From Paenibacillus amylolyticus (lineage in GTDB: Bacteria; Bacillota; Bacilli; Paenibacillales; Paenibacillaceae): DNA of 64,000 bases. The notes below the pieces were generated by a model, which saw nothing but the letters and a program-made list of their open reading frames with translations, ran no database searches and was not told the DNA's origin. Below, in pieces: positions 7,226 through 50,254 of this stretch. The position numbers were made by a program, and so were the translations under genes. Position 1 is the first letter of the stretch. Each line of letters starts with the position of its first letter. The DNA lies in NCBI RefSeq assembly GCF_001570725.1, contig NZ_BCNV01000001.1, forward strand, positions 2,046,001 through 2,110,000, written 5' to 3'.

Positions 7226-8107
7226 ATGGAACTTAGAGTACTTCGATATTTTTTGACAGTAGCTCGTGTAGAAAATATCACACATGCTGCAACGATCTTA
7301 CATGTGACACAGCCTACGTTAAGCAGACAGTTGGCTGATCTGGAAAAAAATTTAGAAACTCAATTGTTTATACGTGGGAAAAGTAAAATAACACTGACAG
7401 AAGCAGGCATGCTTTTACGTCAAAGAGCAGAAGAAATTCTCACACTTGCGGATAAAACAGAGAAAGAGTTTAAAGATCAGAACAATCTGGTTGGAGGAAC
7501 CATATCGATCGGGAGTGTTGAATCATTAACGTCCAATGTTATTTTACAATTATTAAAAGACTTCAATATGGAGTATCCACAGGTTAAGTATCACATCTAT
7601 AGTGGAACGGGGGATGACATAAAGGAGCGAATTGATAAAGGACTGCTCGATGTGGGCATTTTGTTAGAGCCCATTCACATTGAGAAATACGATTTCATCA
7701 GACTGCCCCAGAAGGAGCGCTGGGGAGTCCTTATGAAGACCTCATCACCTCTTGCACAGAACGAATATGTAACTTCAACCGATTTAGCCGGAGTGCCTCT
7801 GCTCATATCCAGCCGATCTGTCGTACAGAATGAGATTGCAAGCTGGTTTGCCGATGAATATGCACATCTAAACTTCGTTGCGACCTATAATTTAATATCT
7901 AATGTACTTAACCTCGTAGAGGAGGGGTTAGGGACGGCAATCTGTATTGAGGGTGCGCTTGCAATGAAGCAGTCTGACACATTATGCTTTAGAGCTTTTC
8001 ACCCGGAACTTCAGTTTCCAACAGTGATTGTGTGGAAAAAACATAAGGTATTCAGTCAAACTGAGGTACGTTTTTTGGAACATATCAGGCATGCCTTTCA
8101 GGCATAA
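7226..8107 (+). CDS. LysR-family transcriptional regulator
   Basis: About 293 residues. The N-terminal winged helix-turn-helix (MELRVLRYFLTVARVENITHAA, VTQPTLSRQLADLE) is followed by the periplasmic-binding-like effector domain (about 90-290). The start at 7226 is preferred over 7202 because AGGAGG lies about 6 bases before it and the protein then begins as LysR proteins usually do. It probably controls the CMD gene or other members of this redox set; the effector is unknown. Confidence 0.9.
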   Translation: MELRVLRYFLTVARVENITHAATILHVTQPTLSRQLADLEKNLETQLFIRGKSKITLTEAGMLLRQRAEEILTLADKTEKEFKDQNNLVGGTISIGSVESLTSNVILQLLKDFNMEYPQVKYHIYSGTGDDIKERIDKGLLDVGILLEPIHIEKYDFIRLPQKERWGVLMKTSSPLAQNEYVTSTDLAGVPLLISSRSVVQNEIASWFADEYAHLNFVATYNLISNVLNLVEEGLGTAICIEGALAMKQSDTLCFRAFHPELQFPTVIVWKKHKVFSQTEVRFLEHIRHAFQA

Positions 8108-15901: not shown

Positions 15902-17266
15902 ATGGCTATTGATACGGTGTTATGGAGCAGGCTGGTGACGGGTTTGACGCTCGGTTTCCACGTGATTTTTGCAACGCTTGGTGTCGGCGTACCTTTGATG
16001 ATTGCTATTGCAGAGTTCATCGGTATTCGGAAGAAAGATCACCATTACATACTTATGGCAAAAAGGTGGTCCAGAGGGTTTGTCATTTCTGTGGCGGTGG
16101 GTGTCGTGACAGGTACAGCGATCTCGCTGCAATTGGCTTTGGTGTGGCCGAATTTTATGAAACTGGCCGGGAATGTCATTGCACTGCCACTATTTATGGA
16201 AGTGTTCGCATTCTTTTTTGAAGCGATATTCCTAGGCATTTATCTGTACACATGGGATCGGTTCAAAAATCCGTATATCCACTGGCTGCTGACTATTCCG
16301 ATTGTCGCCGGGGCAGGCATGTCTGCTGTTTTTATTACAACAGTGAACGGATTCATGAACCAGCCTGAAGGCTTTGTCATGGAAGCAGGTCAATTCATGG
16401 CAGTGAACCCCGTACAAGCGATGCTGAATACGGCGACGTTCTCCAAGGTGTTCCATGTATTAAGCTCAGCCTATCTGACAGGAGCTGCACTGTTAGCAGG
16501 AATTGCAGCCTTTGCGATGCTGAGAAAAGGGGTGTCAGCCTACCACAAAAAAGGCTTGAATCTCATGATGGCCGTAGTTTTCGTATTCAGTTTATTAAAC
16601 TCCTTAGCTGGAGATGTATCTGCCAAGTTTTTAGCTGAGCATCAGCCGGAGAAGCTCGCAGCTGCCGAGTGGCATTTCGAGACAGAAAGCGGCGCGGATC
16701 TCATTTTATTGGGATGGTTGAATGCTGAACATGAAATTATAGGCGCTCTTCATTTGCCGAAGCTGCTCAGCTTCCTTGCCTTTGGAGACTTTAATGCCGA
16801 AGTAACCGGGTTGAATGAATTTCCACCAGACGAGCATCCACCATTACTTGTGCATTACTTGTTTGATCTAATGGCTGGAATAGGTTTCGCTCTGCTTGCT
16901 ATATCAAGTCTGTACTTCCTGTTTGTGTTCTGGAAGAAACGTAATCAGTTTAACAAGTGGATGCTTCGTATGGTTGCACTCAGTGCACCGCTTGCTTTTC
17001 TGGCTGTTGAGATGGGTTGGTTCTATGCAGAAGTGGGGCGACAGCCATGGATCATCCGAGGTTATATGCGGGTAGAAGAGGCCGCTACTTCTTCCCCGAG
17101 CGTGAGAATTTTATTTTTCGTCTTCTTGCTTCTATACATCCTGCTAGGCGTTATGTGTGTCGTCGTACTGAGACGGTTGTTCAATAACAATCCTGCTGAA
17201 CTTGAGATGGAGAAATGGTTGAAAGAGAAGCATGATCAATCAGCCGAGAAAGGGGAGCAGGCATAA
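15902..17266 (+). CDS. cydA: Cytochrome bd-type quinol oxidase subunit I
   Basis: 454-residue integral membrane subunit carrying the haems; it oxidises quinol and reduces oxygen to water. Conserved haem ligands: H20 (GFHVIFA), H185 (KVFHVLSSAYL) and the Met in EMGWFYAEVGRQPW. The acidic pair in MEVFAFFFEAIFLGIYLYTWDRF is also present. The loop between helices 6 and 7 (Q-loop) is short, as in the YthA/cyanide-insensitive (CIO) type. AAAGGAGG lies before the ATG. First gene of a four-gene cyd run; its stop overlaps the next start (TAATG). Confidence 0.95.
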   Translation: MAIDTVLWSRLVTGLTLGFHVIFATLGVGVPLMIAIAEFIGIRKKDHHYILMAKRWSRGFVISVAVGVVTGTAISLQLALVWPNFMKLAGNVIALPLFMEVFAFFFEAIFLGIYLYTWDRFKNPYIHWLLTIPIVAGAGMSAVFITTVNGFMNQPEGFVMEAGQFMAVNPVQAMLNTATFSKVFHVLSSAYLTGAALLAGIAAFAMLRKGVSAYHKKGLNLMMAVVFVFSLLNSLAGDVSAKFLAEHQPEKLAAAEWHFETESGADLILLGWLNAEHEIIGALHLPKLLSFLAFGDFNAEVTGLNEFPPDEHPPLLVHYLFDLMAGIGFALLAISSLYFLFVFWKKRNQFNKWMLRMVALSAPLAFLAVEMGWFYAEVGRQPWIIRGYMRVEEAATSSPSVRILFFVFLLLYILLGVMCVVVLRRLFNNNPAELEMEKWLKEKHDQSAEKGEQA

Positions 17267-18279
17267 TGAGTTATGAATTGATTGGTATATCGGTACTCTG
17301 GCTGTTCTTGTACGGCTATCTTATTGTAGCATCCATTGATTTTGGAGCAGGGTTCTTCGCCTTTTACGCACGCCTGACGAAGCAGGATCACCTGATTAAT
17401 CGTCTGATCTCTCGCTATCTATCACCGGTCTGGGAGATCACCAATGTATTCTTTGTCTTTTTCTATATTGGCATCGTCGGCTTCTTTCCGGATACGGCCT
17501 ATTATTATGGCTCCGCGCTGCTCGTTCCGGGAAGTATTGCCGTCATTTTACTTGCCATACGTGGATCGTTCTATGCTTTCGAAAATTATGGTTCCAAAAA
17601 AAGTATCGTGTACTTGTTTCTATACGGAGCTACAGGTTTGCTTATTCCAGCGTCGTTGTCAGTAGCACTGACATTGTCTGAAGGTGGCTTTATTTTGAAG
17701 CAGGGGGATACCGTTTCCCTCGATTACTGGGCACTATTTACGAATCCATTATCGTGGAGCATCGTTGGACTAGCCATCGTGTCCGTATTGTTCATTAGCG
17801 GATCATTTCTCACATTTTACGCTTCACGGGCAGAGGATCATCCGGCATTGAAGCTGATGCGGAACTATGCTTTGTTCTGGAGCACACCGACCATTATTCT
17901 CGCGCTGACTGCATTTATATATTTGGGTCAACACAATGAGCGTCATTTTCAAAATATGATGGATTTATGGTGGCTGCTGGCGCTTTCCGTTGCATTTTTC
18001 ATGATTGCCATGTGGCTGTTATATAACGGACGCCGTTATGGTTTAGCTTTTATATGCATCATGCTGCAATTTTTCACAGCCTTTTTCGCTTACGGGATTG
18101 GGCAATATCCTTACATTCTTGATCCATACATCACGATTCAGAGCAGCGCCACATCGCCTGCAATGGGCTTCGCTCTAGTGGTCGTGTTTATCGGTGGTCT
18201 GTGCCTGTTAATTCCTTCTCTGATTCTGGTCTTCAAACTGTTCCTGTTTGATGCGGATTATGTGAAAGGGAAAAAATAA
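17266..18279 (+). CDS. cydB: Cytochrome bd-type quinol oxidase subunit II
   Basis: 337-residue partner of CydA with about eight to nine transmembrane helices. The N-terminal IVASIDFGAGFFAFYARLT matches the conserved G(F)DFG-type signature of CydB, and WEITNVFFVFF corresponds to the conserved WE/N region. It is translationally coupled to cydA by a one-base overlap, and cydD follows after 14 bp with its own GGAGG. Confidence 0.93.
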   Translation: MSYELIGISVLWLFLYGYLIVASIDFGAGFFAFYARLTKQDHLINRLISRYLSPVWEITNVFFVFFYIGIVGFFPDTAYYYGSALLVPGSIAVILLAIRGSFYAFENYGSKKSIVYLFLYGATGLLIPASLSVALTLSEGGFILKQGDTVSLDYWALFTNPLSWSIVGLAIVSVLFISGSFLTFYASRAEDHPALKLMRNYALFWSTPTIILALTAFIYLGQHNERHFQNMMDLWWLLALSVAFFMIAMWLLYNGRRYGLAFICIMLQFFTAFFAYGIGQYPYILDPYITIQSSATSPAMGFALVVVFIGGLCLLIPSLILVFKLFLFDADYVKGKK

Positions 18280-18293
18280 AGGAGGAGCGTTCC

Positions 18294-20117
18294 ATGAAGA
18301 GGAGAGCCAAATCCAATCTGATATCGCAGCAAATGTCTTTACAACGAAAAAACAGGCTTTTCCTTGCGATCATCTCGCTGGCGCTTGGTGTAGCTATTGT
18401 AAGTCAGGCCACATTGGTGGCTGAAGCAGTCCAGCGAATCTTTGTAGAGAAAGCTTCCTTTTCATCCGTGATCCTGTTGCTTGTTCTATTGCTGGCTGTT
18501 ATGGCTGTACGCACACTGTTGACGTATGGCAATGGGAAAGTGGGCTTGCATATGGCAGCCCGTGCCAAGACGAATATGCGAGCAGCCGTTTTACAGAAAC
18601 TGACGCAAGCCTCCATGCCTTCAACCCTTCGTGGACAGACGGGAGGAAAGGTCAGCGTTGCTTTGGATGCTGTGGATGAAGCCGACAGTTATTTCAGTCA
18701 GTACATGCCACGGATGATGGAAGCTGCGATGATCGCGATTCTGATTCTGGTTGTTACGTTTACGCAGCACGCCAACACAGGCTGGATTATGCTGTTCACG
18801 GCGCCATTTATTCCGCTGTTTATGATCTTGGTTGGGCTCCAGACGAAGAACAAATCAGAAGAAAAATACGCGCAACTGGCCGAGTTCTCCGGTACGTTTC
18901 TGGATTCGCTTCAAGGGCTGGTTACGTTAAAAATATTCGGACGGGCGAAACGTCAACAGCAAGAGATTGAACGCAGCAGTCTAGGTTATCGTGATGCCAC
19001 CATGGGCATTTTGAAGATTGCATTTACTAATACGTTTATGCTGGAATCGATCGTGATGTTAAGCATTGGTATCGTCGCGCTTGAACTGGCTATCCAATTA
19101 CTCGTTTTCAAATCGATGAGCTTCCACACGGCCTTTCTCGTGTTGTTGCTCGTGCCAGAGTTCTACAGTCTGTTGAAGAATACAGGAACGGCTTTTCACA
19201 GCGGGCGAACCAGTATGGGGGCGATTCGTAAAGTAGAACAAATGCTTGAGGAAACAAGTGTTAAGAGCACACAAACGAAGTCAGAAGAAGGATCCGATCA
19301 AAGCGATATAACCGATTTGGATGCAATTGCAAAGACGGAAGAGCTTCGTACAACTCGCGCCGAGTTGATAACAATGCCCCCGACCATTGAACTGAACGAT
19401 GTCCGATTCCAGTACTCGCCTGATTCCTTTGGACTTGAGACAGGACAGATCTCAATTGGACCGGGAGAACAGATCGCTATTGTAGGCAAAAGTGGCTCAG
19501 GTAAAACCACGCTACTTCATCTTATTGCAGGTTTGCTGAAAACAGATTCGGGAGCGGTTCTGGTTAACGGAAGCCAGATTTCGCAACATGATGAGGCTGC
19601 ATGGTTCGAGCGTGTTAGCTACATTACACAGCATCCGTATATTTTTGCAGGTACATTTGCCGAAAATATCGCGATTGGGGCAGGGCGGAACGTCTCCAGA
19701 GTTGAAATTGAGCAGGCGGCAGAGGAAGCAGGACTTGCTGGCGTTGTTGCACAATTGGAGCAGGGATTAGACACGTTTGTTGGTGAAGGGGGCCGGGGAT
19801 TATCTGGTGGGGAAAAGCAAAGACTTGCCTTGGCACGTGCTTTTCTGAAGAGACCCGCTGTCATTTTGTTCGATGAACCCACCGTGGGACTGGATCTGCA
19901 TACCGAGCGGGTACTGCAACAATCCATTGCGTCATTAGCCAAAACGGCAACGATGATTACGGTGGCACACCGTTTATATACGATTCAACATGCGGACAAC
20001 ATTTTGTTTATGGACAATGGGGTATTGGTGGATTCAGGTCATCATAACGAGCTTCTAGCACGTTTGCCGCAATATGCAGAGATGGTGGATGTAGGGCGGA
20101 AAGGAGGGTTAGCATGA
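18294..20117 (+). CDS. cydD: Thiol reductant ABC exporter subunit CydD
   Basis: 607-residue half ABC exporter. About five to six transmembrane helices occupy residues 20-300 and a nucleotide-binding domain about 360-600. Walker A is GKSGSGKTT, the signature LSGGEKQRLALARAF and Walker B VILFDEP, with an H-switch in VAHRL. CydDC exports glutathione/cysteine-type thiols and is needed to assemble cytochrome bd. A charged insert of about 40 residues (about 315-365, rich in Glu, Thr and Ser) links the two domains and is longer than usual. Overlaps cydC by 4 bp. Confidence 0.93.
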   Translation: MKRRAKSNLISQQMSLQRKNRLFLAIISLALGVAIVSQATLVAEAVQRIFVEKASFSSVILLLVLLLAVMAVRTLLTYGNGKVGLHMAARAKTNMRAAVLQKLTQASMPSTLRGQTGGKVSVALDAVDEADSYFSQYMPRMMEAAMIAILILVVTFTQHANTGWIMLFTAPFIPLFMILVGLQTKNKSEEKYAQLAEFSGTFLDSLQGLVTLKIFGRAKRQQQEIERSSLGYRDATMGILKIAFTNTFMLESIVMLSIGIVALELAIQLLVFKSMSFHTAFLVLLLVPEFYSLLKNTGTAFHSGRTSMGAIRKVEQMLEETSVKSTQTKSEEGSDQSDITDLDAIAKTEELRTTRAELITMPPTIELNDVRFQYSPDSFGLETGQISIGPGEQIAIVGKSGSGKTTLLHLIAGLLKTDSGAVLVNGSQISQHDEAAWFERVSYITQHPYIFAGTFAENIAIGAGRNVSRVEIEQAAEEAGLAGVVAQLEQGLDTFVGEGGRGLSGGEKQRLALARAFLKRPAVILFDEPTVGLDLHTERVLQQSIASLAKTATMITVAHRLYTIQHADNILFMDNGVLVDSGHHNELLARLPQYAEMVDVGRKGGLA

Positions 20118-21841
20118 ATGAGCTGACGATTTTGTCAAAAGCGATGATTCAGGAACGCAAGGATATCTTGCTTTCGATATTGGGCGGATTCATCGCCGGC
20201 ATAGCAGGTGTAGCTCTCTTTTCCGCGAGCGGGTATATGATATCGCAAACGGTATTTGCGCCACCGTTGTACACCTTAATAGTACTCACCTCGATGGTTA
20301 AATTGCTCGGTTTCCTGCGGGCGGCAAGCCGCTACGGAGAACGGTTGTATTCCCACAGGGCGACATTCTCCATGCTGAGCCGTTTGCGGACGTCCTTTTT
20401 TGCCAAACTGATTCCCGTAACGCCGGGTATATTGAACAAAAATCGAAGCGGGGATCTGCTTGCGCGAATCGTAGGTGATGTGGAAAGCTTGCAAAATTAC
20501 TTTTTGCGAGTCGCGTATCCACCAATCATGGTCGTTATGGTGTTCTTGGCTACCATGCTGTTCACGTCGGCCTTTTCGATCTGGATTGCGTGCTTGTTAG
20601 TACTAGGCATGCTAATCACGGCATTTGTTGTACCAGGCATTGTCTTGTTAGGTCAGCGAAAAATACACGGACGTGTCCGCCAGCAACGAGCTTTGCTGTC
20701 CACGGAAGTAACCGAAGTGTTGTATGGTTTCCGTGATCTGAAAGTATACGGCCAATTAGAACAACGTGAGCAGCAGCTCCAGCAGGCTTCCGCTGCATTG
20801 GCAATAGAACAGAAACAAGCGGCTTCGCACTTGCTGCGTGGGCAATCCATGCATGTTTTTGTAACGTATCTCGTTACATGGGGTGTGCTGGCACTGAGCG
20901 CTTTCTTAATTGTGAATGGAGCGTTTGCCGGTGTATTCCTCGCCATGCTGATCCTGGCCACACAGACCGTGTTCGAAGAAGCTGCGGCAATGGCTATATT
21001 ACCTTTGTATAAGCAGGATAGCGAACACGCTGCTCAGCGACTGTCAGAAACAGTCCCGACCTCCGATGTGGAACCAGTACAGCCGAGCGGTAAAGTGTCA
21101 GGCGATCATGCAGTTTCAATCGAGTTATCTCGTGTTAACTTCCAATATGAAGGTGAATGGAGACCGGCGCTCAGGGAGCTATCCTTGCAACTTACAGCAG
21201 GCTCCAAAACAGCGATTGTTGGCCCAAGCGGTTCAGGCAAGTCAACGATTATCGATCTGCTGCTCAAGCTGCGTACGCCAACGTCTGGCGATATACGGTT
21301 AAACGATGTTCCAGTGCAGGAACTGAATGAAGAGAGCATCTGGCAAAACGCGAATGTCGTGTTGCAGCAAAGTCATTTCTTCCGGGGAACCATCCGGGAT
21401 AACCTGCTGCTGAATGGAGAAGAACATTCGGATGAACAACTGTCGGCTGTGCTGGATAAAGTACAACTGCCGAACAAGTCGTTGACCGATATGGTATATG
21501 AAAAAGGAGAGAACCTATCGGATGGCGAGAAGCAGAGGCTGGCTCTGGCACGGGCCATGCTGCGCAAAGGACGGTTATGGCTTCTGGACGAACCGACGTC
21601 TTCACTGGATTACGTCACAGAGCAACGTGTATTGCAGCATCTTCTGGCCCAGGCATCCGAAGATACACTTCTGTTGATCTGCCATCGGCTTACGGGATTG
21701 GAAGAGATGGATCGGATTGTGGTCATGGACCAGGGCAAGATCGTGGAATCGGGTTCCTTTACCGAGCTGATGGAGCAAAAAGGATACTTTTATGAGATGA
21801 AACAAATTGAACGACAAATGATTGGAGACGCCGGGGCGTGA
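20114..21841 (+). CDS. cydC: Thiol reductant ABC exporter subunit CydC
   Basis: 575-residue second half of the CydDC exporter. The membrane domain is followed by an ATPase domain with Walker A GPSGSGKST, a slightly changed signature LSDGEKQRLALARAM (Asp where Gly is usual) and Walker B LWLLDEP. The ATGA overlap with cydD indicates coupled translation. It is the last gene of the cydABDC run, with a terminator about 70 bp downstream. Confidence 0.93.
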   Translation: MNELTILSKAMIQERKDILLSILGGFIAGIAGVALFSASGYMISQTVFAPPLYTLIVLTSMVKLLGFLRAASRYGERLYSHRATFSMLSRLRTSFFAKLIPVTPGILNKNRSGDLLARIVGDVESLQNYFLRVAYPPIMVVMVFLATMLFTSAFSIWIACLLVLGMLITAFVVPGIVLLGQRKIHGRVRQQRALLSTEVTEVLYGFRDLKVYGQLEQREQQLQQASAALAIEQKQAASHLLRGQSMHVFVTYLVTWGVLALSAFLIVNGAFAGVFLAMLILATQTVFEEAAAMAILPLYKQDSEHAAQRLSETVPTSDVEPVQPSGKVSGDHAVSIELSRVNFQYEGEWRPALRELSLQLTAGSKTAIVGPSGSGKSTIIDLLLKLRTPTSGDIRLNDVPVQELNEESIWQNANVVLQQSHFFRGTIRDNLLLNGEEHSDEQLSAVLDKVQLPNKSLTDMVYEKGENLSDGEKQRLALARAMLRKGRLWLLDEPTSSLDYVTEQRVLQHLLAQASEDTLLLICHRLTGLEEMDRIVVMDQGKIVESGSFTELMEQKGYFYEMKQIERQMIGDAGA

Positions 21842-22699: not shown

Positions 22700-22826
22700 C
22701 TCTGGTATTGAAGACCAACAGTATGCAGAGTCGCTGAACTGTTTGGCAGAACAGGGAAAAGCCGAATTAAAATGTACTCTACCCAGTTACCTATATGATG
22801 AGAATCTTAAAGTCTTTTAGTAACCT

Positions 22827-23102
22827 TCACATAACAGCAGATGATTCAAACGCCTTATTTTTCTTCGTAAGTGGCTTTTTCCTCAAAGTCCGATCATACA
22901 GATATGGCTTTCCGTAATATTCCCGCGCATGCTTTTGTTTCTGCTTTTTATGTATATCAACCTTGATCTCCAGATTAGCAACGTTATTTTGGAAATCAGT
23001 AGCAATTCGCTTGCACCATTTGAGTCCACTTTCTTCAGATGCACTGAAATGAACGCGTAATAGATATCCATTCACCGTTAATTCGAACTTGTATAAATTC
23101 AT
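22827..23102 (-). CDS. Small hypothetical protein
   Basis: 91 residues, transcribed leftward, with GGAAAGGA about 9 bases before its ATG. The first 50 residues (MNLYKFELTVNGYLLRVHFS) look like a folded beta/alpha domain; the C-terminal 40 are strongly basic (HKKQKQKHAREYYGKPYLYD, LRKKPLTKKNKAF). No family recognised. It is kept because of the ribosome binding site, the plausible protein composition and the lack of a competing gene; it could still be spurious. Confidence 0.55.
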   Translation of the reverse strand: MNLYKFELTVNGYLLRVHFSASEESGLKWCKRIATDFQNNVANLEIKVDIHKKQKQKHAREYYGKPYLYDRTLRKKPLTKKNKAFESSAVM

Positions 23103-23297
23103 GATATGTATCCTTTCCAGGTAGGGATTCTATACTGCACAAAGCACTATAACTTGATTATAACAGGAACATACGTTCTGTAAAAGTGATATTTATATTG
23201 GCGAGTGAATTTAAAAATACTCAACTCAAATATAATACGTTCATATATTATATTTAATGCTCATTTGATTTTTCTTTACTCCCGCTTAATACATGCT

Positions 23298-23306
23298 TGT
23301 TATACT
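23298..23306 (+). promoter_or_regulatory. Possible extended -10 promoter of large SLH protein
   Basis: TGTTATACT is a TGn-extended -10-like sequence 34 bp before the ATG, with GAGAGGGG as ribosome binding site. No clear -35 at proper spacing. Confidence 0.4.
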
Positions 23307-23340
23307 AACTCGTATTTGAATATGAGAGGGGTAAGACAGC

Positions 23341-26300
23341 ATGAGAATTTATGGACAGCGCTGGTTAGCAATTATTCTTGTCATGGTCATGATTGTTCAG
23401 TCGGCATGGTCATTTATAGGAATCCAAATTGCTGGAGCAGCTTCGTATGAAACTGGACATCTGGCAAAAAACGTAGTAATCAGTCAATTTTACGGTGGTA
23501 AAAAAGACGATGTGGAGGATACCTACAGTAATGACTTCGTCGAGTTACATAATCCCACAGGAGAAGAGATTTCTCTGACGGGCTGGTCCATTCAGTATGC
23601 AGACAGTCAGAAGAGCAAGTGGAAAAAGGTTGATCTGGGGACAGTGAACCATTCCATCCCAGCCTATGGTTATTATCTCATTAGTCTTGACAGTAATGGA
23701 GCAGTCGGAGCTGCACTTCCGCAAGCTGACGAGCAATCTTCCGCCATCAAACTGAGCAATAAAAGTGGCAAAATTGTTCTTTTGAGAACAGATTCGACTT
23801 TAACCGTAATGGACCCCACGACAGATCCCCTGAATGCAGACATAGTGGACTTCGTTGGTTATGGTGCAGATGCCTATTGGGGAACTCCTGCTTCTGAAAG
23901 TGGCAAGCAAAGTACAATGCAACGTTTGGTCTTCGATCCTTTAAACCCAGATCAACCTGCTACGGCTACTATGTTCCCGGATCGCGGTAACAACTGGGAT
24001 ACGCGTGACAATGGTAGAGACTTCGAGAAAGTAAAAGGAGCACCGGTTCGTAACTCTGGAAATACGGCAGCTTACGTTATTCTTGAACAGGAACAAACGA
24101 TTCAAATGCAGTCCGAATCCATGGTAAGCAATGATGCTAACAAAGTTATGCTGACTGCTGTTGGAGGAAAATTGAAACAGGGTCCGTGGTCTTCAAGTGA
24201 GTTTAACGTGCTCGGCCTGCCTAACGGAATATTTGCTGAGGCAGCTGCGAATGGAGATCAGATTCAATTGACTTTCAATGGGGATGGGACGGGTCGTGTT
24301 CTTGCTGAGTCCGAGTTATTCTTCGAGATTCATCCCGAGGCGTGGAACCAAATCAACAAACCATCTTCCACGTTAAACGTTTATCAAGGCAGTCATCGCG
24401 TTACAATAGCAAAATTCACGCCTGATCATCAGATTGTGGCATCACCAGATTCGAACTCTGCTTTCATTCACATGACAGGTTCACATGACATGAGTACGAA
24501 GGTTCGAATTGAAGTAAGTCAAGGCCTTCCGATCGATGGCATTCTTGCATCTGAAGCTTATACGCTAACAGGACTTCCATCCGGAAACTGGGAACTGGCT
24601 GCGGTAGGTGAATCTGCTGATCGCTCCGTTACCATCTCTATCGAAGGCCAATCAGATACTCCAGTGTCTGAACAAATAAAGCTTAATATTGTTCTGAATC
24701 CAGAGGCAATACAGGACGGTAATGAATGGCTCGCTTCAGAGGCAATGGAGCTGACACTTGGTCGTTACATTAAGCCGGTTCTTACGGATATAGCACGAAA
24801 AGATTGGGTCGAGAAAAGTATAATTGCGGACAATACTTTCTTTAATGATCCAGTTACCAAAGAGTACAAATATGGAACTGAAGGCCTGGCCGCGAATGAG
24901 TACACTTTCTTACGAGGCACAAATGCTTTGTTCAAAGCTGATCTTGCTTCAGGTCTAATCACTTCCCCTGCTGAAGTTATTAAGGATTGGGCGAACAAAG
25001 ACATTCTGACCTATACTGAAGGTGATGCTCACATTCAAAACGTGGGTACATTCAATGACAGCACCAAGCAGATGGTGTTTGGTCTGAATGATTTTGATAC
25101 CGCTGGGATTGGAAGCTTTTATGAAGAACTCCTTCGCTTCGTTACAAGCGTGTACATCCTTCCGTATGATAAAGACAGCTCAGGTATTCAACATCTGCAA
25201 ACGTCTGATTACCGTGATGTATCAAGGGTCTTTTTGGAGACATACAAAGATACACTCGTGGATATCCAAAATAATAAGGGTCTGAAAGGTACCAAATTGA
25301 CAGCCAGTAATGTAACAGATTATACGAAAGCAGTCATGAATAGCGTTTCGAAGAAATCATATGAAGAAGCACTTGAAAAATTACTCGGAAAGCGTACGCT
25401 GAATGGCAAGCTTAACATTGCAGGCAACCCCGATAAATTCGAAAAAGCTACTGAAGCGGAATTAAGTGCGTTGCAATCAGGATGGGAAGCATATAAAGCA
25501 GAAGTAAGACACCATTTTCCAAACCTCACAGATGAGCAGTTCGAGGATTACTTTACCATGAAGGATGCCGTACGACGTATTAATCAGGGTGTAGGAAGTA
25601 TTGGCGTCAAACGGTTCAACGTTCTGATCGAAGGTGCGAGCGACAATCACACAGATGACATTTTACTGGATGTGAAAGAGCAGACCCCGGACGCTTCTGA
25701 ATCCAAGAATGCCTACCTGAACATGGGTGTTGACGTTGATACCTATCTGGGCACGTTGGTTGCAGCTCAGCGTTCATACCTGATTCGTGAAGTTTCGCCT
25801 TTCAAAGGAGACTATACGGACAAGACTTTCCAGAGTAAAGAAGAGCTGCAGCAATACTTGATCGACGCTGCCAAATCATACGCATATGCGAGCTCACGTT
25901 TGGATTCGATATCCGATACGTTGAACTATGCTTACGAAGATCGTTTCGTGTCGGATATCATTCCGATCTGGGATGCACTCGTGCCAGCAATCCTGAACGC
26001 AGCTGAGGATTATTCGCAACAGATCGTAACCGATTTTAATCTTGTGAAAGAAGATATGCGATCAGGTAAGTTAATTGATGTAGCCACACTGGATAATTTA
26101 ACCGTTAGCCAAGGCACGATGGAACCATCCTTTAATCCTGAAACTACACAATACCGTGTTACGGTTGATGCGAACACAGAGAGCATTGATATCACAGCGA
26201 AATCCACAGATGCCAAGGCAGCATTAACGGCAAAAGGAAGTTCGTATGCTAACGCTCACTCCCAGACGTTCGCTTTGTCTTCAGGACAAAATCAAATCCC

Positions 26301-27390
26301 GTTTGTCGTGACTGCACGAAACGGATTAACTCGTAGCTATAATCTGACCGTTTTACGTGGTGCGTTAACGCAACCCACGCCTTCGAATCCATCAGGCGGT
26401 GGCGGCTCAGCCGGTTCAAGTGGTACAAATGGAAACAGTGGAACACCATCTAATACTAATCAGCTAATACCTGCCGGTGGCGGAGAATTCGCATTCCAAG
26501 GAGTCACCCTTCGGGTACCGAACGGTGCACTACAGGCGAGCACTACAATGGACATCACCAAAGTTCCAGATGCAGCATCATTGCTTACAGGAACACCATA
26601 TCAATTGTTGGGAGATGTATTCCAAGCCAATTCTAAGATGTTTCTTACACCGGTGACAGTAACCTTACCTTTCGACCAAACCAAAGTTTCACCGAATCAG
26701 GAAATCCGTTTGTACGGTTATAATGAGGCAAACAAACAATGGGAACCGTTTAATGAGGTTAAAGTAGATCGGGAGAAAGGGACCATATCTGGATCAACGA
26801 GCTATCTGGGAACATTTGCGATACTCTTATCAGCCGGACACGGCATATCCTTACCTGAAACTTCGCTAACGTTCAGCGATATCCAAACACATTGGGGAGC
26901 TGCCAATATTCTTGAATTGGTGTCGCTCGGGGTCATTAATGGGTATCCCGATCAGTCGTTTAGACCTGACCGCAACGTTTCCCGAGCTGAGTTGATCAGC
27001 TTGATTGTTAAGGCTTTGAAGCTAGAGACTTCGACAGAATCAGACTTCACCGATACAGATGCTCATTGGGCTCATGATGCTATTAACACAGCACATGCAC
27101 TTGGGATAGCAAACGGCTATAGTGATAATCGTTTTGGACCGAATGAATGGGTTACGCGAGAAGAAATGGCTACCTTTGTCGTGCGAGCTGCGCAATGGGA
27201 AATCAGTGATACATCGATCAGTTTCACAGACGCCTCGCTTGTATCCAATTGGGCTCAACCAGCGATTTCCAAAGCCATTGCTGAAGGTATATTAAACGGA
27301 TATACAGACGGTAGCTTCAAGCCTAAGGACAAAACAACGCGTGCTGAGGCAGCTGCAATGATCCTTCGTCTGATTAAGCTTCAACCATAA
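23341..27390 (+). CDS. Giant S-layer-anchored protein: lamin-tail domain, DUF2252-like core, cadherin-like domain, three SLH domains
   Basis: 1349 residues. A signal peptide (about 1-36, ending AGAAS) is followed by a lamin-tail domain (about 40-190: FVELHNPTGEEISLTGWSIQ, IVDFVGYGADAYWG). After a beta-rich stretch (about 240-460) comes a segment (about 480-895) that matches DUF2252: FLRGTNALFKADL (521-533), GDAHIQNVG (561-569), FGLNDFD (580-586), GVGSIGVKRF (750-759), LLDVKEQTP (K779) and YLIREVSPFKG (813-823). Then a cadherin-like beta-sandwich (about 915-1010), a Gly/Ser linker, a ZU5-like domain (about 1040-1165) and three SLH domains (about 1180-1349: FSDIQTHWG, NGYPDQSFRPDRNVSRAEL) that bind cell-wall polymer. 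It should sit outside the cell. Function unknown; DUF2252 resembles kinase-fold phosphotransferases in its GDxHxxN and NDFD motifs (inference). Confidence 0.85.
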   Translation: MRIYGQRWLAIILVMVMIVQSAWSFIGIQIAGAASYETGHLAKNVVISQFYGGKKDDVEDTYSNDFVELHNPTGEEISLTGWSIQYADSQKSKWKKVDLGTVNHSIPAYGYYLISLDSNGAVGAALPQADEQSSAIKLSNKSGKIVLLRTDSTLTVMDPTTDPLNADIVDFVGYGADAYWGTPASESGKQSTMQRLVFDPLNPDQPATATMFPDRGNNWDTRDNGRDFEKVKGAPVRNSGNTAAYVILEQEQTIQMQSESMVSNDANKVMLTAVGGKLKQGPWSSSEFNVLGLPNGIFAEAAANGDQIQLTFNGDGTGRVLAESELFFEIHPEAWNQINKPSSTLNVYQGSHRVTIAKFTPDHQIVASPDSNSAFIHMTGSHDMSTKVRIEVSQGLPIDGILASEAYTLTGLPSGNWELAAVGESADRSVTISIEGQSDTPVSEQIKLNIVLNPEAIQDGNEWLASEAMELTLGRYIKPVLTDIARKDWVEKSIIADNTFFNDPVTKEYKYGTEGLAANEYTFLRGTNALFKADLASGLITSPAEVIKDWANKDILTYTEGDAHIQNVGTFNDSTKQMVFGLNDFDTAGIGSFYEELLRFVTSVYILPYDKDSSGIQHLQTSDYRDVSRVFLETYKDTLVDIQNNKGLKGTKLTASNVTDYTKAVMNSVSKKSYEEALEKLLGKRTLNGKLNIAGNPDKFEKATEAELSALQSGWEAYKAEVRHHFPNLTDEQFEDYFTMKDAVRRINQGVGSIGVKRFNVLIEGASDNHTDDILLDVKEQTPDASESKNAYLNMGVDVDTYLGTLVAAQRSYLIREVSPFKGDYTDKTFQSKEELQQYLIDAAKSYAYASSRLDSISDTLNYAYEDRFVSDIIPIWDALVPAILNAAEDYSQQIVTDFNLVKEDMRSGKLIDVATLDNLTVSQGTMEPSFNPETTQYRVTVDANTESIDITAKSTDAKAALTAKGSSYANAHSQTFALSSGQNQIPFVVTARNGLTRSYNLTVLRGALTQPTPSNPSGGGGSAGSSGTNGNSGTPSNTNQLIPAGGGEFAFQGVTLRVPNGALQASTTMDITKVPDAASLLTGTPYQLLGDVFQANSKMFLTPVTVTLPFDQTKVSPNQEIRLYGYNEANKQWEPFNEVKVDREKGTISGSTSYLGTFAILLSAGHGISLPETSLTFSDIQTHWGAANILELVSLGVINGYPDQSFRPDRNVSRAELISLIVKALKLETSTESDFTDTDAHWAHDAINTAHALGIANGYSDNRFGPNEWVTREEMATFVVRAAQWEISDTSISFTDASLVSNWAQPAISKAIAEGILNGYTDGSFKPKDKTTRAEAAAMILRLIKLQP

Positions 27391-27413
27391 CGAAACTCTA
27401 GGATGATATTAAC

Positions 27414-27465
27414 AAACAAAGGCTATTTCAGGATGGAAATATCCTACGAAATAGCCTTTTGTTAT
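27414..27465 (+). terminator. Terminator after large SLH protein
   Basis: AAAGGCTATTTC pairs with GAAATAGCCTTT with an inner GGAT/ATCC stem; TTTTGTTATTT follows. Confidence 0.85.
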
Positions 27466-27589
27466 TTATTGATCCATGAGGAATATAATTTTTTTGAAGA
27501 TCCTCAACTCAAGAAGGTTCGCTAGACACCTTTGCAACGGTTCGTTTAATGGTAAAATATCTAAAAATGGTTCATGTTGGGGGATGCGC

Positions 27590-46471: not shown

Positions 46472-49400
46472 GTGCGGAAATATGCAAAGATTTTATTTAT
46501 GTTTTTACTAGTTATTGTCCTGCTGATCAGTTCGTTTTCAAACGTATTCATTACATACGTATCAGCTGCTAGTACCGATGTGACAAGGGAAGTAGCTTCT
46601 CAATTTATTCAAAGTGTAGATATAAGAACAAAGGTAGGAACAATGTCAGGAGCTACACTTATTGATACACCTGATCTAGAGAAAGATACGGTACCGTTAA
46701 CCTTAAAGGCAGATCAGGCTTTTCAGGCGGATCTTGCTCTCCAGCCAGATAAAGTTACTGTGCAAAAGAATGGAGCATTAGTTAATGGAACAGACATTGG
46801 GTGGACAATTACAGTAAACAAGGAAAATGTTGCTGTTAATAATGCAGTGCTCGTTGATATGATTCCAGATAGCCAGATTCTGAATGAATTATCGATACGA
46901 GTGAATGGAGGGTTACCACCAGGATCTGTAATAGATAATGGAAGCAGCTTATCTATTGCATTGGGCAATATTACAACGCGACAGGTCATTACCTTTACTA
47001 CGTCATTAAAGGAAACAGCATTACTTGCGGCGCTAGAAGCAGGAGATCCGTCCATTCCTGTAAGGAATACCGCTTATCTTGAGCATGACGATAACGAGAC
47101 AACGAATGTGGATAGTCCGAAGACGGTAACTATTCCACTCAATATTTTAAGTACATCGGGAAGCTATGATGCTACAACGACAGTGAATAATACAAAAAAT
47201 ATTACTTGGACGATTGTCGTGAATGAAGCCGAACTGGCATTCAACAATGCTATTATCAAGGATACGCTTCCTGCCGGGCTAACTTACATTGCTGGAACAG
47301 CAACTGTAAATGGTACTAGTGTTACTCCCGTAACAAGCGGCTCAGAACTTACCTTCAACCTGGGTAATATTACAAACGCGGTTACGATTACGTACGAAAC
47401 TGAAATTGAGCCTGCTCGTTTCCAAACAAATGGCTCATATAATTTCATAAACGAAGCAGTCCTTACTTGGGATGGCCTTACTGGAACCGGAGTAGAAAAA
47501 AATGCTTCAGTAGGAGTTGGAAGTAACTTTTTCAACACGTCAGGTGCGGGTTATAACCGAGCGAACGGTGTCATTTCTTGGTCAATTGATATTAATAGTG
47601 AAAATATTAATTGGGCTGCACCAACGATTACGGATAGTATCCCAAGCACGCAACAGTATATTCAAGGCTCTGTTCGAATTGTGGATCATCAAGGTAGTGC
47701 TTATGCTGGCGGCGCATTTAACTACAATACTGGAACTTCAACACTTCGTTATACTTTTGGTTCTGCTATTAATTCACGATACACCATTACCTTTGATACA
47801 AAGCCAGCAAATACAGACAACATTACAGCTAACTTTATTAGCAGCTCTAGTAGTCACTTTTCAAACACAGCAAGCATTTCTAGCGGCACAATTACCCGTA
47901 ATAGTACAGGCACGCAGAGCTATACAAGCAATGTGTTGAAAAAGGATGCAGAAGGCTATGATCTAAATGTAGCTGGGCGTAAGATTACGTGGAAGTTGAC
48001 TGTCAATGAAAACGGGGCAACAACTCCAAGTGCACCGAAAGCAGGAACTGATCCTAGTTTGTACGCTGCTATTGCACTCCCAAATGTAAGTATTGTCGAT
48101 ACTATTCCAGCCGGACTTACCTTTATACCCAGTAGCGTCAGGGTACTTGATCGCAACAGTAATCCTGTCACGGGTCTGGTAACGGTAAGCGGAACAGATG
48201 TCGTAACCTTCGATTTTAATTCCAATATTACGGAGCAATACACGATCTACTTCGATACTGCCATTACGGATCTATCCAAATTCATATCACAAAATAGTAC
48301 GTTGAATAATGGTAATTTTAATGTTAAGAATGAAGCGACATTAATCCATGATAAAACGACAAGATCCACTACTGATTCAGCAACTCAAACCGTCAGCAAC
48401 CATATTGTAAGTAAAAAAGGTATTCCAACCACTAATGGAAATAAGTATATTGATTGGGTTGTATATTTGAACTCTAATGCAGTAAATCTTAATCAGCTGC
48501 TAGATGTTGATAGATTCTGGTTAATTGATAACCTGCAAGCAGGTCTTGAGCTAGATACAACAAGCGTGGAATTAATCGCATACGGTGGAGCAATTAACGT
48601 ACCTGACAATTTACCAGCAAACGGAAATGATGGTTTAGGTGCAGGTACACCAGTACTACTTGATGGCTCTCATATTGTCTATGATGCTACCACTAGAGAA
48701 TTTAGATTTAATATTCCCAATGATACGATTGATAAGGCATATAAGCTTTCTTTCCGTACGTATGTAACGGAAACGGTAGCCTCTGGATCTCGCTTTTCCA
48801 ACATGATTAATCTATTTGGCTCTAAAGATAATGTTGCTGTTCCAATCAATGGTGCTTACCAGTCTAACGATTCACGCCAAGTAACGTTCTTGGAAGCTGG
48901 AAGCATGGGATACGGTAATCTTGGTAAATTAATTGTTAAACAGGCAGATTTAGATGATAACAACGTTAAATTATCTGGTGCAACCTTTGCCTTGTATGAT
49001 CAATATGGGAATAAGGTTCAAGAAAAAGTAACCGTAAATGGAGAACTGGAATTCAATCGAATTAAATATGACTTGCCTTACTATGTTAAAGAGGTAGCGG
49101 CGCCAACAGGATATCTACTGAGTAGAAATGCAAGTGTGGACGGCACTCCAACAACTGTTACGCCAATAGGAGCTGTTGTAGAGAATGCCATTCCATTAAC
49201 ACTAACAGCTTCACATACTCCTAAGTATTTAGAATTAGTTTTTGCTAATGAAGAGATTAGTTCAACGGTGTTCATCAGCCCTGTGAGCGTAAACTTTGAT
49301 AAGAAGGTATCTGCCCAAACAGACGTAAGGACAACGATGACGCTGAATGGTAACACATTAACAAGTGTCGCGAACGGTTTAACTTTGCTAACGTTAGGGA

Positions 49401-50254
49401 CGGATTACACGGTTGTGGGCAACACAGTTACATTCCTGAAGGCGTACTTGGCGAGTCAGTCAGTCGGTACGACAAACTTGATATTCACATTCAGCGGAGG
49501 AGCAACACAGACGCTTGCAATCACGGTAAGTGAAACGACACCAGCACCAGGTTCAGGTTCTGCATCAGTACCAAGTTCAACACCAACACCAGAGCCAGCA
49601 CCGGAGCCAGAGAAAGAAATAGGTTCAATTCCACCACCTAAACCATTCTACATTGATGGAGTTAATATGGATGTAATTAAAGCACTGGTAGCAAAAGCGA
49701 ATTCTGCACCTGTAGTATCATTTAAGGATGTGCCGGCGATTACCCCAAATGCTAAAGCAATCGGGTTTGCGACTAAGCTTGGGATTATCAACGGATATGA
49801 TGATGGTTCATTTCGTGCTCGTGCTACGATAACTAGAGCAGAGTTTGCATCTATGCTAGTAAGAGCACTTGGATTAACGTCAGAAGGTTCCCCCGAATTT
49901 AAAGACACTCAAGGTCACTGGGCGGCCAATGCCATTGCTGTATTAAAGACATTAGACATTGCTAAGGGTTACTTAGACGGAACATTCAAACCGGATCAGT
50001 CGATCACCAGAGCGGAAATCGTAGCTATGCTTTCAGAAGTAATGAACACTTCTTTTGTGAGAAACAATAAGTTCAAAGATGTTATAGGTCACTGGGCAGA
50101 GGCAGAGATTGGTACATTATCAGATATGGGGATTGTAAAGGGTACACCGGATGGTGTATTCAGACCGAATGCTAATGCTACGAGATATGAGTCGTTACTC
50201 ATGATCTTACGTATGCTGAATGCCAGTCTTGATCATTCGCTAAACGTAGAATAG
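46472..50254 (+). CDS. S-layer-anchored adhesin with repeated beta-sandwich modules, SpaA-like domain, X2 domain and three SLH domains
   Basis: 1260 residues; GTG start, AAGGATG about 10 bases upstream. Signal peptide about 1-34 (ending YVSAAS). Residues about 90-810 hold repeated isopeptide/DUF11-like modules (GWTITVNKENVAVNNAVLVD, TWTIVVNEAELAFNNAIIKD, WSIDINSENINWAAPTITDS, WKLTVNENG). Next come a prealbumin-like SpaA module (about 811-925, GATFALYDQYG, YYVKEVAAPTGYLL), an X2-type module (about 930-1020, ISPVSVNFDKK), a Pro/Glu-rich linker and three SLH domains (about 1083-1260, NGYDDGSFRARATITRAEFA, FKDTQGHWAANAIAVL). It would be displayed on the cell wall; the ligand is unknown. Codon use is more A/T-rich than the neighbours. 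Confidence 0.87.
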   Translation: MRKYAKILFMFLLVIVLLISSFSNVFITYVSAASTDVTREVASQFIQSVDIRTKVGTMSGATLIDTPDLEKDTVPLTLKADQAFQADLALQPDKVTVQKNGALVNGTDIGWTITVNKENVAVNNAVLVDMIPDSQILNELSIRVNGGLPPGSVIDNGSSLSIALGNITTRQVITFTTSLKETALLAALEAGDPSIPVRNTAYLEHDDNETTNVDSPKTVTIPLNILSTSGSYDATTTVNNTKNITWTIVVNEAELAFNNAIIKDTLPAGLTYIAGTATVNGTSVTPVTSGSELTFNLGNITNAVTITYETEIEPARFQTNGSYNFINEAVLTWDGLTGTGVEKNASVGVGSNFFNTSGAGYNRANGVISWSIDINSENINWAAPTITDSIPSTQQYIQGSVRIVDHQGSAYAGGAFNYNTGTSTLRYTFGSAINSRYTITFDTKPANTDNITANFISSSSSHFSNTASISSGTITRNSTGTQSYTSNVLKKDAEGYDLNVAGRKITWKLTVNENGATTPSAPKAGTDPSLYAAIALPNVSIVDTIPAGLTFIPSSVRVLDRNSNPVTGLVTVSGTDVVTFDFNSNITEQYTIYFDTAITDLSKFISQNSTLNNGNFNVKNEATLIHDKTTRSTTDSATQTVSNHIVSKKGIPTTNGNKYIDWVVYLNSNAVNLNQLLDVDRFWLIDNLQAGLELDTTSVELIAYGGAINVPDNLPANGNDGLGAGTPVLLDGSHIVYDATTREFRFNIPNDTIDKAYKLSFRTYVTETVASGSRFSNMINLFGSKDNVAVPINGAYQSNDSRQVTFLEAGSMGYGNLGKLIVKQADLDDNNVKLSGATFALYDQYGNKVQEKVTVNGELEFNRIKYDLPYYVKEVAAPTGYLLSRNASVDGTPTTVTPIGAVVENAIPLTLTASHTPKYLELVFANEEISSTVFISPVSVNFDKKVSAQTDVRTTMTLNGNTLTSVANGLTLLTLGTDYTVVGNTVTFLKAYLASQSVGTTNLIFTFSGGATQTLAITVSETTPAPGSGSASVPSSTPTPEPAPEPEKEIGSIPPPKPFYIDGVNMDVIKALVAKANSAPVVSFKDVPAITPNAKAIGFATKLGIINGYDDGSFRARATITRAEFASMLVRALGLTSEGSPEFKDTQGHWAANAIAVLKTLDIAKGYLDGTFKPDQSITRAEIVAMLSEVMNTSFVRNNKFKDVIGHWAEAEIGTLSDMGIVKGTPDGVFRPNANATRYESLLMILRMLNASLDHSLNVE

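Follow-up and report, generated by a model that had tools for sequence, protein, structure and literature searches.

An exported, mostly wall-anchored branch of the kinase-like DUF2252 family, represented by a 1349-aa protein of Paenibacillus amylolyticus

The stretch of Paenibacillus amylolyticus DNA analyzed here (64,000 nucleotides of contig NZ_BCNV01000001.1, referred to as the window) codes for a 1349-aa protein in which a DUF2252 domain is flanked by modules typical of surface proteins, raising the question of what a kinase-like domain would be doing on the outside of the cell. Kinases acting outside the bacterial cell are, to our knowledge, hardly known, enzymes of this kind being usually intracellular. 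As judged from sequence, exported DUF2252 proteins form a real and conserved branch of a known kinase-like family, most of them wall-anchored, and what is newly seen is that a single tree branch unites them. Whether the DUF2252 core is a competent kinase-fold phosphotransferase working outside the cell as part of a wall-anchored enzyme is a more delicate matter, and we place that proposal at even chances.

A DUF2252 core in a predicted wall-anchored protein

The DUF2252 (PF10009) core proposed in an initial annotation of this locus is borne out by a Pfam match of 156 bits (cut-off, 22.3; E value, 2e-45) that spans nearly the full domain (profile positions 12 to 388 of 392), and the signature motifs occur in the order quoted there. 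The surface modules named alongside it are likewise present, with lamin tail domain (LTD), Cadherin-like, and SLH matches in Pfam and an N-terminus that is signal-like by eye. This N-terminus, MRIYGQRWLAIILVMVMIVQSAWSFIGIQIAGAAS, begins with basic residues, runs on into a hydrophobic stretch, and closes with an AxA-like sequence, and a signal is seen in the close orthologues L185 and L186 with a simple hydropathy rule (mean of at least 1.8 over ten residues); signal calls throughout are by this heuristic and by eye. The SLH region has three Pfam stretches (154.9 bits, the best one ending at residue 1338) with TRAE-type motifs at residues 1214 (SRAE), 1272 (TREE), and 1333 (TRAE), and also resembles solved S-layer proteins by sequence match. 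Three SLH repeats and a predicted signal, the attributes of an SLH-anchored wall protein, are therefore both present, and there is no cysteine in the entire protein. The P. amylolyticus genome also has two matches to PS_pyruv_trans, the family to which the pyruvyl transferase for SLH anchoring belongs, and these are candidates for a CsaB-type enzyme. Because of the signal-like N-terminus, the lack of cysteine, and the SLH repeats, the predicted export and SLH anchoring of the 1349-aa protein are supported.

When proteins of about the same length were searched with the DUF2252 part, 29 were recovered, the 1349-aa protein itself included; in these protein searches only the 7999 to 8000 candidates sharing most words were scored, within the length range. 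Where organisms are readable, all are Paenibacillus or Cohnella except one filed as Bacillus sp. FJAT-27264. Precomputed domain lists give LTD, DUF2252, ChiW Ig-like, Cadherin-like, and SLH for all 29, and a fresh Pfam scan that took in 22 of them (the 1349-aa protein and 21 relatives) finds LTD, DUF2252, Cadherin-like, and SLH in 22/22. The ChiW Ig-like domain (PF18683) is less even: it is listed for the 1349-aa protein and all 28 long relatives in the precomputed lists, and 17 of the 22 long proteins have it in the fresh scan at E 0.001, the 1349-aa protein not being among them and giving no match at E values up to 1. The beta domain ahead of the SLH repeats (residues about 1061 to 1165) scores as ZU5 in 1 of the 22 proteins of the fresh scan. 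Neither this domain nor the Ig-like one figures in the initial annotation. HFS is the motif of autoproteolytic ZU5 domains; the consensus of this domain reads HFT, and the 1349-aa protein has neither HFT nor HFS. A further profile search for family members gave 14 proteins, too few for coevolution analysis.

This architecture has counterparts with other cores. As described in excerpts of PMC5132251, the SLH-anchored chitinase ChiW of Paenibacillus sp. FPU-7 has the same display plan of SLH, flexible Gly/Ser segment, Ig-like domains, and catalytic core, but its core is GH18 rather than DUF2252. In ShfP-type surface proteins, similarly, an enzyme displayed on the surface is surrounded by LTD, cadherin, SLH, and ZU5 modules, although that core is calcineurin-like (PMC11488536, in the part available).

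An exported branch of DUF2252

An 8-row alignment used to scan named genomes gave 134 relatives, and among the best 80 of these, 34 are long proteins (L185 to L213 and L216 to L220), all with Paenibacillus or Cohnella labels except one with a Bacillus label. An N-terminal hydrophobic segment is present in 33 of the 34 by the hydropathy rule and is not seen in L202; for L216 and L219 it is seen only from a later start codon. Three of four of these long loci examined with Pfam carry SLH, and L218 has LTD, ChiW Ig-like, and DUF2252 matches with no SLH match. Other exported forms include a one-domain DUF2252 protein with a signal-like start (L078), a protein of another Bacilli family with a signal-like start, LRR, DUF2252, and SLH (L075, a form present in 2/29 genomes of that family), and a 469-aa protein that has a lipobox-like FSGC and comes from a spirochaete contig (L221). 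By the hydropathy rule, the members of the Halomonas type and those of Ekhidna and Gracilibacillus appear to be cytosolic, although the rule does not separate the groups cleanly: L240 scores 1.82 when an upstream start is taken. The short DUF2252 members that we met are mostly about 430 to 500 aa, lack a signal, and usually contain cysteine, whereas the exported branch has a signal and almost no cysteine and consists mostly of multidomain surface proteins. The 1349-aa protein shares with the family its core motifs and a near-full-length domain match.

A quick tree built from 55 domain rows places the 24 exported rows together with two signal-less rows of Paenibacillus on one branch (Shimodaira-Hasegawa-like approximate likelihood ratio test [SH-aLRT] 98, no bootstrap) that spans the Paenibacillus/Cohnella LTD-DUF2252 proteins, the LRR-DUF2252-SLH form, the one-domain secreted form, and the spirochaete lipoprotein. 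The input named 23 long exported and 3 signal-less rows, of which 21 and 2 were left after filtering, and the place of L075 is less sure because its branch is long. Keeping the 24 exported rows apart from the two signal-less rows is rejected (approximately unbiased [AU] test, P = 0.002), so the latter are nested within the exported branch, and loss of export in these two would be the simple reading. The signal-less members (L214 and L215) are from Paenibacillus sambharensis and P. tarimensis, and they adjoin genes that, by reading, are of an arabinose type and a polyamine-transport type.

The cysteine content of the domain follows this division. The domain lacks cysteine in 43/44 exported rows, compared with 9/38 short Bacilli rows and 1/43 rows of the Halomonas type (a set comprising the Halomonas-type, Gracilibacillus-type, and Ekhidna rows together), and the two nested signal-less rows have two and three cysteines (counted in P0031 and L215). 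These counts are descriptive and carry no test, because rows within one clade are not independent, but low cysteine content suggests a second sign of export.

Conserved active-site-like residues

The 44 exported rows, which cover Paenibacillus and Cohnella, two further families of Bacilli, and a single spirochaete contig, retain a nearly complete set of active-site-like residues. D562, N567, D584, D586, G750, G755, and K779 are each present in 44/44 rows of the alignment, as are G561, N583, and S753; H564 is present in 43/44, R758 in 42/44, and G526 in 41/44, with four rows deviating at one or another of the positions G526, R758, and H564. K779 is also found in 38/38 short Bacilli and 43/43 Halomonas-type rows, and K822 in 44/44 exported, 38/38 short Bacilli, and 38/43 Halomonas-type rows (absent in 5/43); N583 is absent from 43/43 Halomonas-type rows. 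A comparison of 29 exported with 36 short rows (the fragments P0030 and P0032 belong to neither group, nor do P0031 and P0033) identifies RG at 525-526, D534, GDxHxxN, NDxD, R599, G750, S753, G755, R758, K779, and K822 as common to both, with K699, D824, and E889 (29/29 each) and D890 (28/29) conserved in the exported branch itself. An active-site-like residue set that is intact in the exported branch is thus supported at the level of the alignment. DUF2252 is the best-conserved region in four of seven pairwise comparisons with the 1349-aa protein (P0002, P0007, P0018, and P0021) and is equal to LTD in a fifth (P0020, 63% each). The ratio of nonsynonymous to synonymous change (dN/dS) in DUF2252 is 0.16 in the pair with G039 and 0.11 in that with G049, both of them close pairs; synonymous change is saturated in the pair with G046.

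Relationship to kinase folds

DUF2252 is listed in the Pfam PKinase clan in excerpts of PMC9758233, and because the idea of a permuted kinase is in print in that same source, it is already known for this family. Pfam itself describes PF10009 as uncharacterized. The exported form is not described in the open literature found (excerpts of PMC9758233 and PMC13118837), which leaves most subscription papers uncovered, and COG4320 has no mention in the open literature, with the same coverage.

The likeness of the GDxHxxN...NDxD segment to the aminoglycoside kinase fold, pointed out in the initial annotation, stands up to profile comparison. With a family alignment of 149 rows (191 before dropping identical rows and rows with more than 35% gaps) and an APH (PF01636) profile of 28 sequences from related genomes, hhalign aligns the catalytic segment (residues about 544 to 602) with the APH catalytic loop at scores of 43 to 44 and probabilities of 66 to 77%. 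The best column-shuffled control reaches 18.4 in 30 shuffles, and 16.7 in 60 shuffles, against a real score of 43.0 in the latter test. The Pfam APH model also reaches the same segment of the exported protein L078, at E 0.006 and under its cut-off. The catalytic part has no match to the Pkinase profile (score 11.9, shuffles up to 22.6). Natural and swapped motif orders score alike against APH (44.4 and 44.3). Where the N-terminal part matches APH and Pkinase, it does so on a helix read as the one preceding the catalytic loop; these matches are not counted because they lie within the shuffles. Profile comparison therefore shows the catalytic half to be akin to the APH fold. DUF2252 is not an APH member, its motif order is reversed, and its glycine-rich/Lys part has no detectable match.

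CotH kinases (PF08757) were considered as relatives of DUF2252 and rejected, there being no Pfam match and hhalign probabilities of 0.2% for the whole domain and at most 1.1% for a part. The earlier comparison with CotH survives as one of possible functional analogues, both being kinase-fold or kinase-like proteins associated with the bacterial envelope or the surface of spores, and not as one of profile similarity. The source of ATP for CotH is itself called unanswered in excerpts of PMC7821199. The P. amylolyticus genome also codes for a 694-aa frame (L120) with a hydrophobic N-terminal stretch and CotH and Cu_amine_oxidN1 domains, a second probable envelope kinase.

Distribution and genomic context

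PF10009 is present in 19/75 genomes of the genus, as 12 frames of 1351 to 1381 aa, six of 465 to 629 aa, and one broken copy (L090 in G041), in which gene remains with one TAA stop lie in a second genomic context. In a sample of the class, 69/398 genomes have PF10009, eight of them in frames longer than 900 aa.

Features of the gene are listed in Table 1. It is followed by genes for a response regulator with an AraC-type helix-turn-helix and a Cache-HAMP histidine kinase, and beyond these by genes read as ATP-binding cassette permeases. In other lineages the DUF2252 gene lies beside genes read as GH30 and sporulenol-synthase-like, or elsewhere; a functional unit with the downstream two-component pair was rejected because of these differing flanks. 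A phage or defense role was similarly rejected, with no PHROG or PADLOC match. Promoter-like sites are no more frequent than chance and terminator-like sites are below chance. An upstream block (about 15902 to 21841) reads as cydABCD, named by reading and size, and in three other genomes of the family (L272, L274, and L282) cydABCD-like genes sit next to a short DUF2252 gene or with a single gene in between, which may be chance. The window contains a second SLH protein gene (46472 to 50254) with collagen-binding, SpaA, and CBM_X2 domains.

Two contexts elsewhere offer leads to phosphate chemistry, each of which counts as one evolutionary case. The LRR-DUF2252-SLH gene (L075, 4751 to 11164, in G284; L293, 8283 to 14700, in G472) lies about 18 bases upstream of ppx on the same strand, and ppx overlaps ppk1 (Pfam in G284); the gene order is the same in G472, with proteins 95 to 96% identical. 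In Cohnella endophytica (L219, 4288 to 12711), a 2808-aa frame combines LTD, DUF2252, ChiW Ig-like, phytase-like PF13449, BslA, and SLH. A polyphosphate link as a general rule was rejected, as no ppk/ppx relatives are found in the other 103 DUF2252 loci (L185 and L186 included; open reading frames of at least 100 aa, mostly within 6 to 9 kb).

Table 1. Coordinates in the window of the DUF2252 gene and its features
Feature	Residues	Position	Strand	Basis or remark
Whole open reading frame, 1349 aa		23341..27390	+	Order: signal, LTD, (Ig-like), DUF2252, Cadherin-like, Gly/Ser-rich linker, beta domain, three SLH
Signal-peptide-like N-terminus	1-34, end estimated	23341..23442	+	Sequence; hydropathy rule on orthologues L185 and L186
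Lamin tail domain (LTD)	43-146	23467..23778	+	Pfam, 43.0 bits (cut-off 34.3)
Middle region, probable ChiW Ig-like (PF18683) site	241-482	24061..24786	+	Placement inferred
DUF2252 domain	483-909 as aligned; Pfam 515-901	24787..26067	+	Pfam and alignment
GDAHIQN, catalytic-loop-like GDxHxxN	561-567	25021..25041	+	Conservation in exported rows; APH match
NDFD, DFG-like metal site; NDxD among exported relatives	583-586	25087..25098	+	Conservation
GVGSIG, glycine-rich-loop-like	750-755	25588..25605	+	Conservation in exported rows
LDVK, contains K779	776-779	25666..25677	+	Conservation
YLIREVSPFK, contains K822	813-822	25777..25806	+	Conservation
Cadherin-like beta sandwich	917-1006	26089..26358	+	Pfam, 59.7 bits (cut-off 24.2)
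Three SLH repeats	within about 1174-1338	26860..27354	+	Pfam, motifs, S-layer matches
Stretch missing from same-species genome G001		23195..27487		Flank matches

Possible activities of the exported protein

In the mechanism that we propose, the signal peptide would export the protein and the three SLH repeats would hold it on the wall, with the Ig-, cadherin-, and lamin-tail-like modules spacing or aiming the core. Outside the cell, the DUF2252 core would bind nucleotide and transfer phosphate to a glycan of the wall or the environment or to a surface protein, the acceptor being held nearby by the modules, with released ATP or another phosphate store as candidate donors.

Several observations weigh against such an extracellular kinase. 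The circular permutation suggested in the initial annotation does not stand out in profile comparison: the glycine-rich segment and the Lys are present, invariant, and located after the catalytic motifs, but the profile scores of this part lie within the shuffles (18.25 against APH, with 3/60 shuffles higher, and 17.5 against Pkinase, with at least 5/60 higher). The kinase alpha-C Glu has no conserved counterpart in the alignment by eye, and no solved structure matches DUF2252 by sequence, the best hits being unrelated proteins at E 0.5. Conservation is not always centered on the core, as LTD exceeds DUF2252 in P0025 and P0029 (SLH too in P0029), and dN/dS is lower elsewhere in the protein (for the G039 pair, 0.09 in LTD; for the G049 pair, 0.08 in the linker and 0.105 in the Cadherin-like domain). 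The gene is accessory and is missing from the same-species genome G001, in which the flanks (22825 to 23194 and 27488 onward) meet with matches that overlap by 6 bases, and beyond close relatives the immediate neighbors of 37 loci include no shared partner gene that would point to a substrate. Finally, little ATP would be expected outside cells.

Alternatively, the domain could have the kinase fold and bind nucleotide but catalyze another reaction such as nucleotidyl transfer, as does the pseudokinase SelO; membership in a fold leaves the reaction unfixed, the family is uncharacterized according to Pfam, and K699, D824, E889, and D890 are conserved residues particular to the exported branch. 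We consider this unlikely, as the residue set is like that of ordinary APH-type phosphotransfer and there is no sign of another reaction. That the domain is a noncatalytic scaffold or binding module would fit an accessory gene, and adhesins are common among surface proteins built with such modules, but the occurrence of the catalytic-type residues in 44/44 exported rows from several Bacilli families and a spirochaete contig makes it improbable. The chain might not be outside at all, with the signal and SLH misread and the enzyme cytosolic; the signal was judged by a heuristic, and the nested P. sambharensis and P. tarimensis relatives have none. Those two, however, have the domain cysteines that 43/44 exported rows lack, and the co-occurrence of SLH, LTD, and signal in a genome with two PS_pyruv_trans genes renders a cytosolic location very hard to credit.

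An extracellular phosphate chemistry in which polyphosphate or phytate-like compounds are used or handled in place of ATP is suggested by the ppx-ppk1 genes next to the LRR-DUF2252-SLH gene in G284 and G472 and by the phytase-like and BslA domains in one chain with an exported DUF2252 in L219. It is an improbable alternative, since the G284/G472 operon counts as one event given that these are relatives with proteins of 95 to 96% identity, the phytase-like domain is in L219 alone (in a single-sequence search), the other 103 loci lack ppk/ppx relatives, and a scan of 10 window proteins shows no ppk, ppx, or phytase product among them.

The wall-anchored phosphotransferase is thus the reading that we carry forward. 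A bolder extension, in which at least two phyla export a permuted kinase-fold branch that phosphorylates extracellular substrates and draws the phosphate from something other than intracellular ATP, perhaps polyphosphate, is a long shot. The signal-bearing, nearly cysteine-free branch, with its intact active-site-like residues, together with its signal-less relatives would provide an expressible set of proteins with which to probe extracellular phosphate transfer and its donor.

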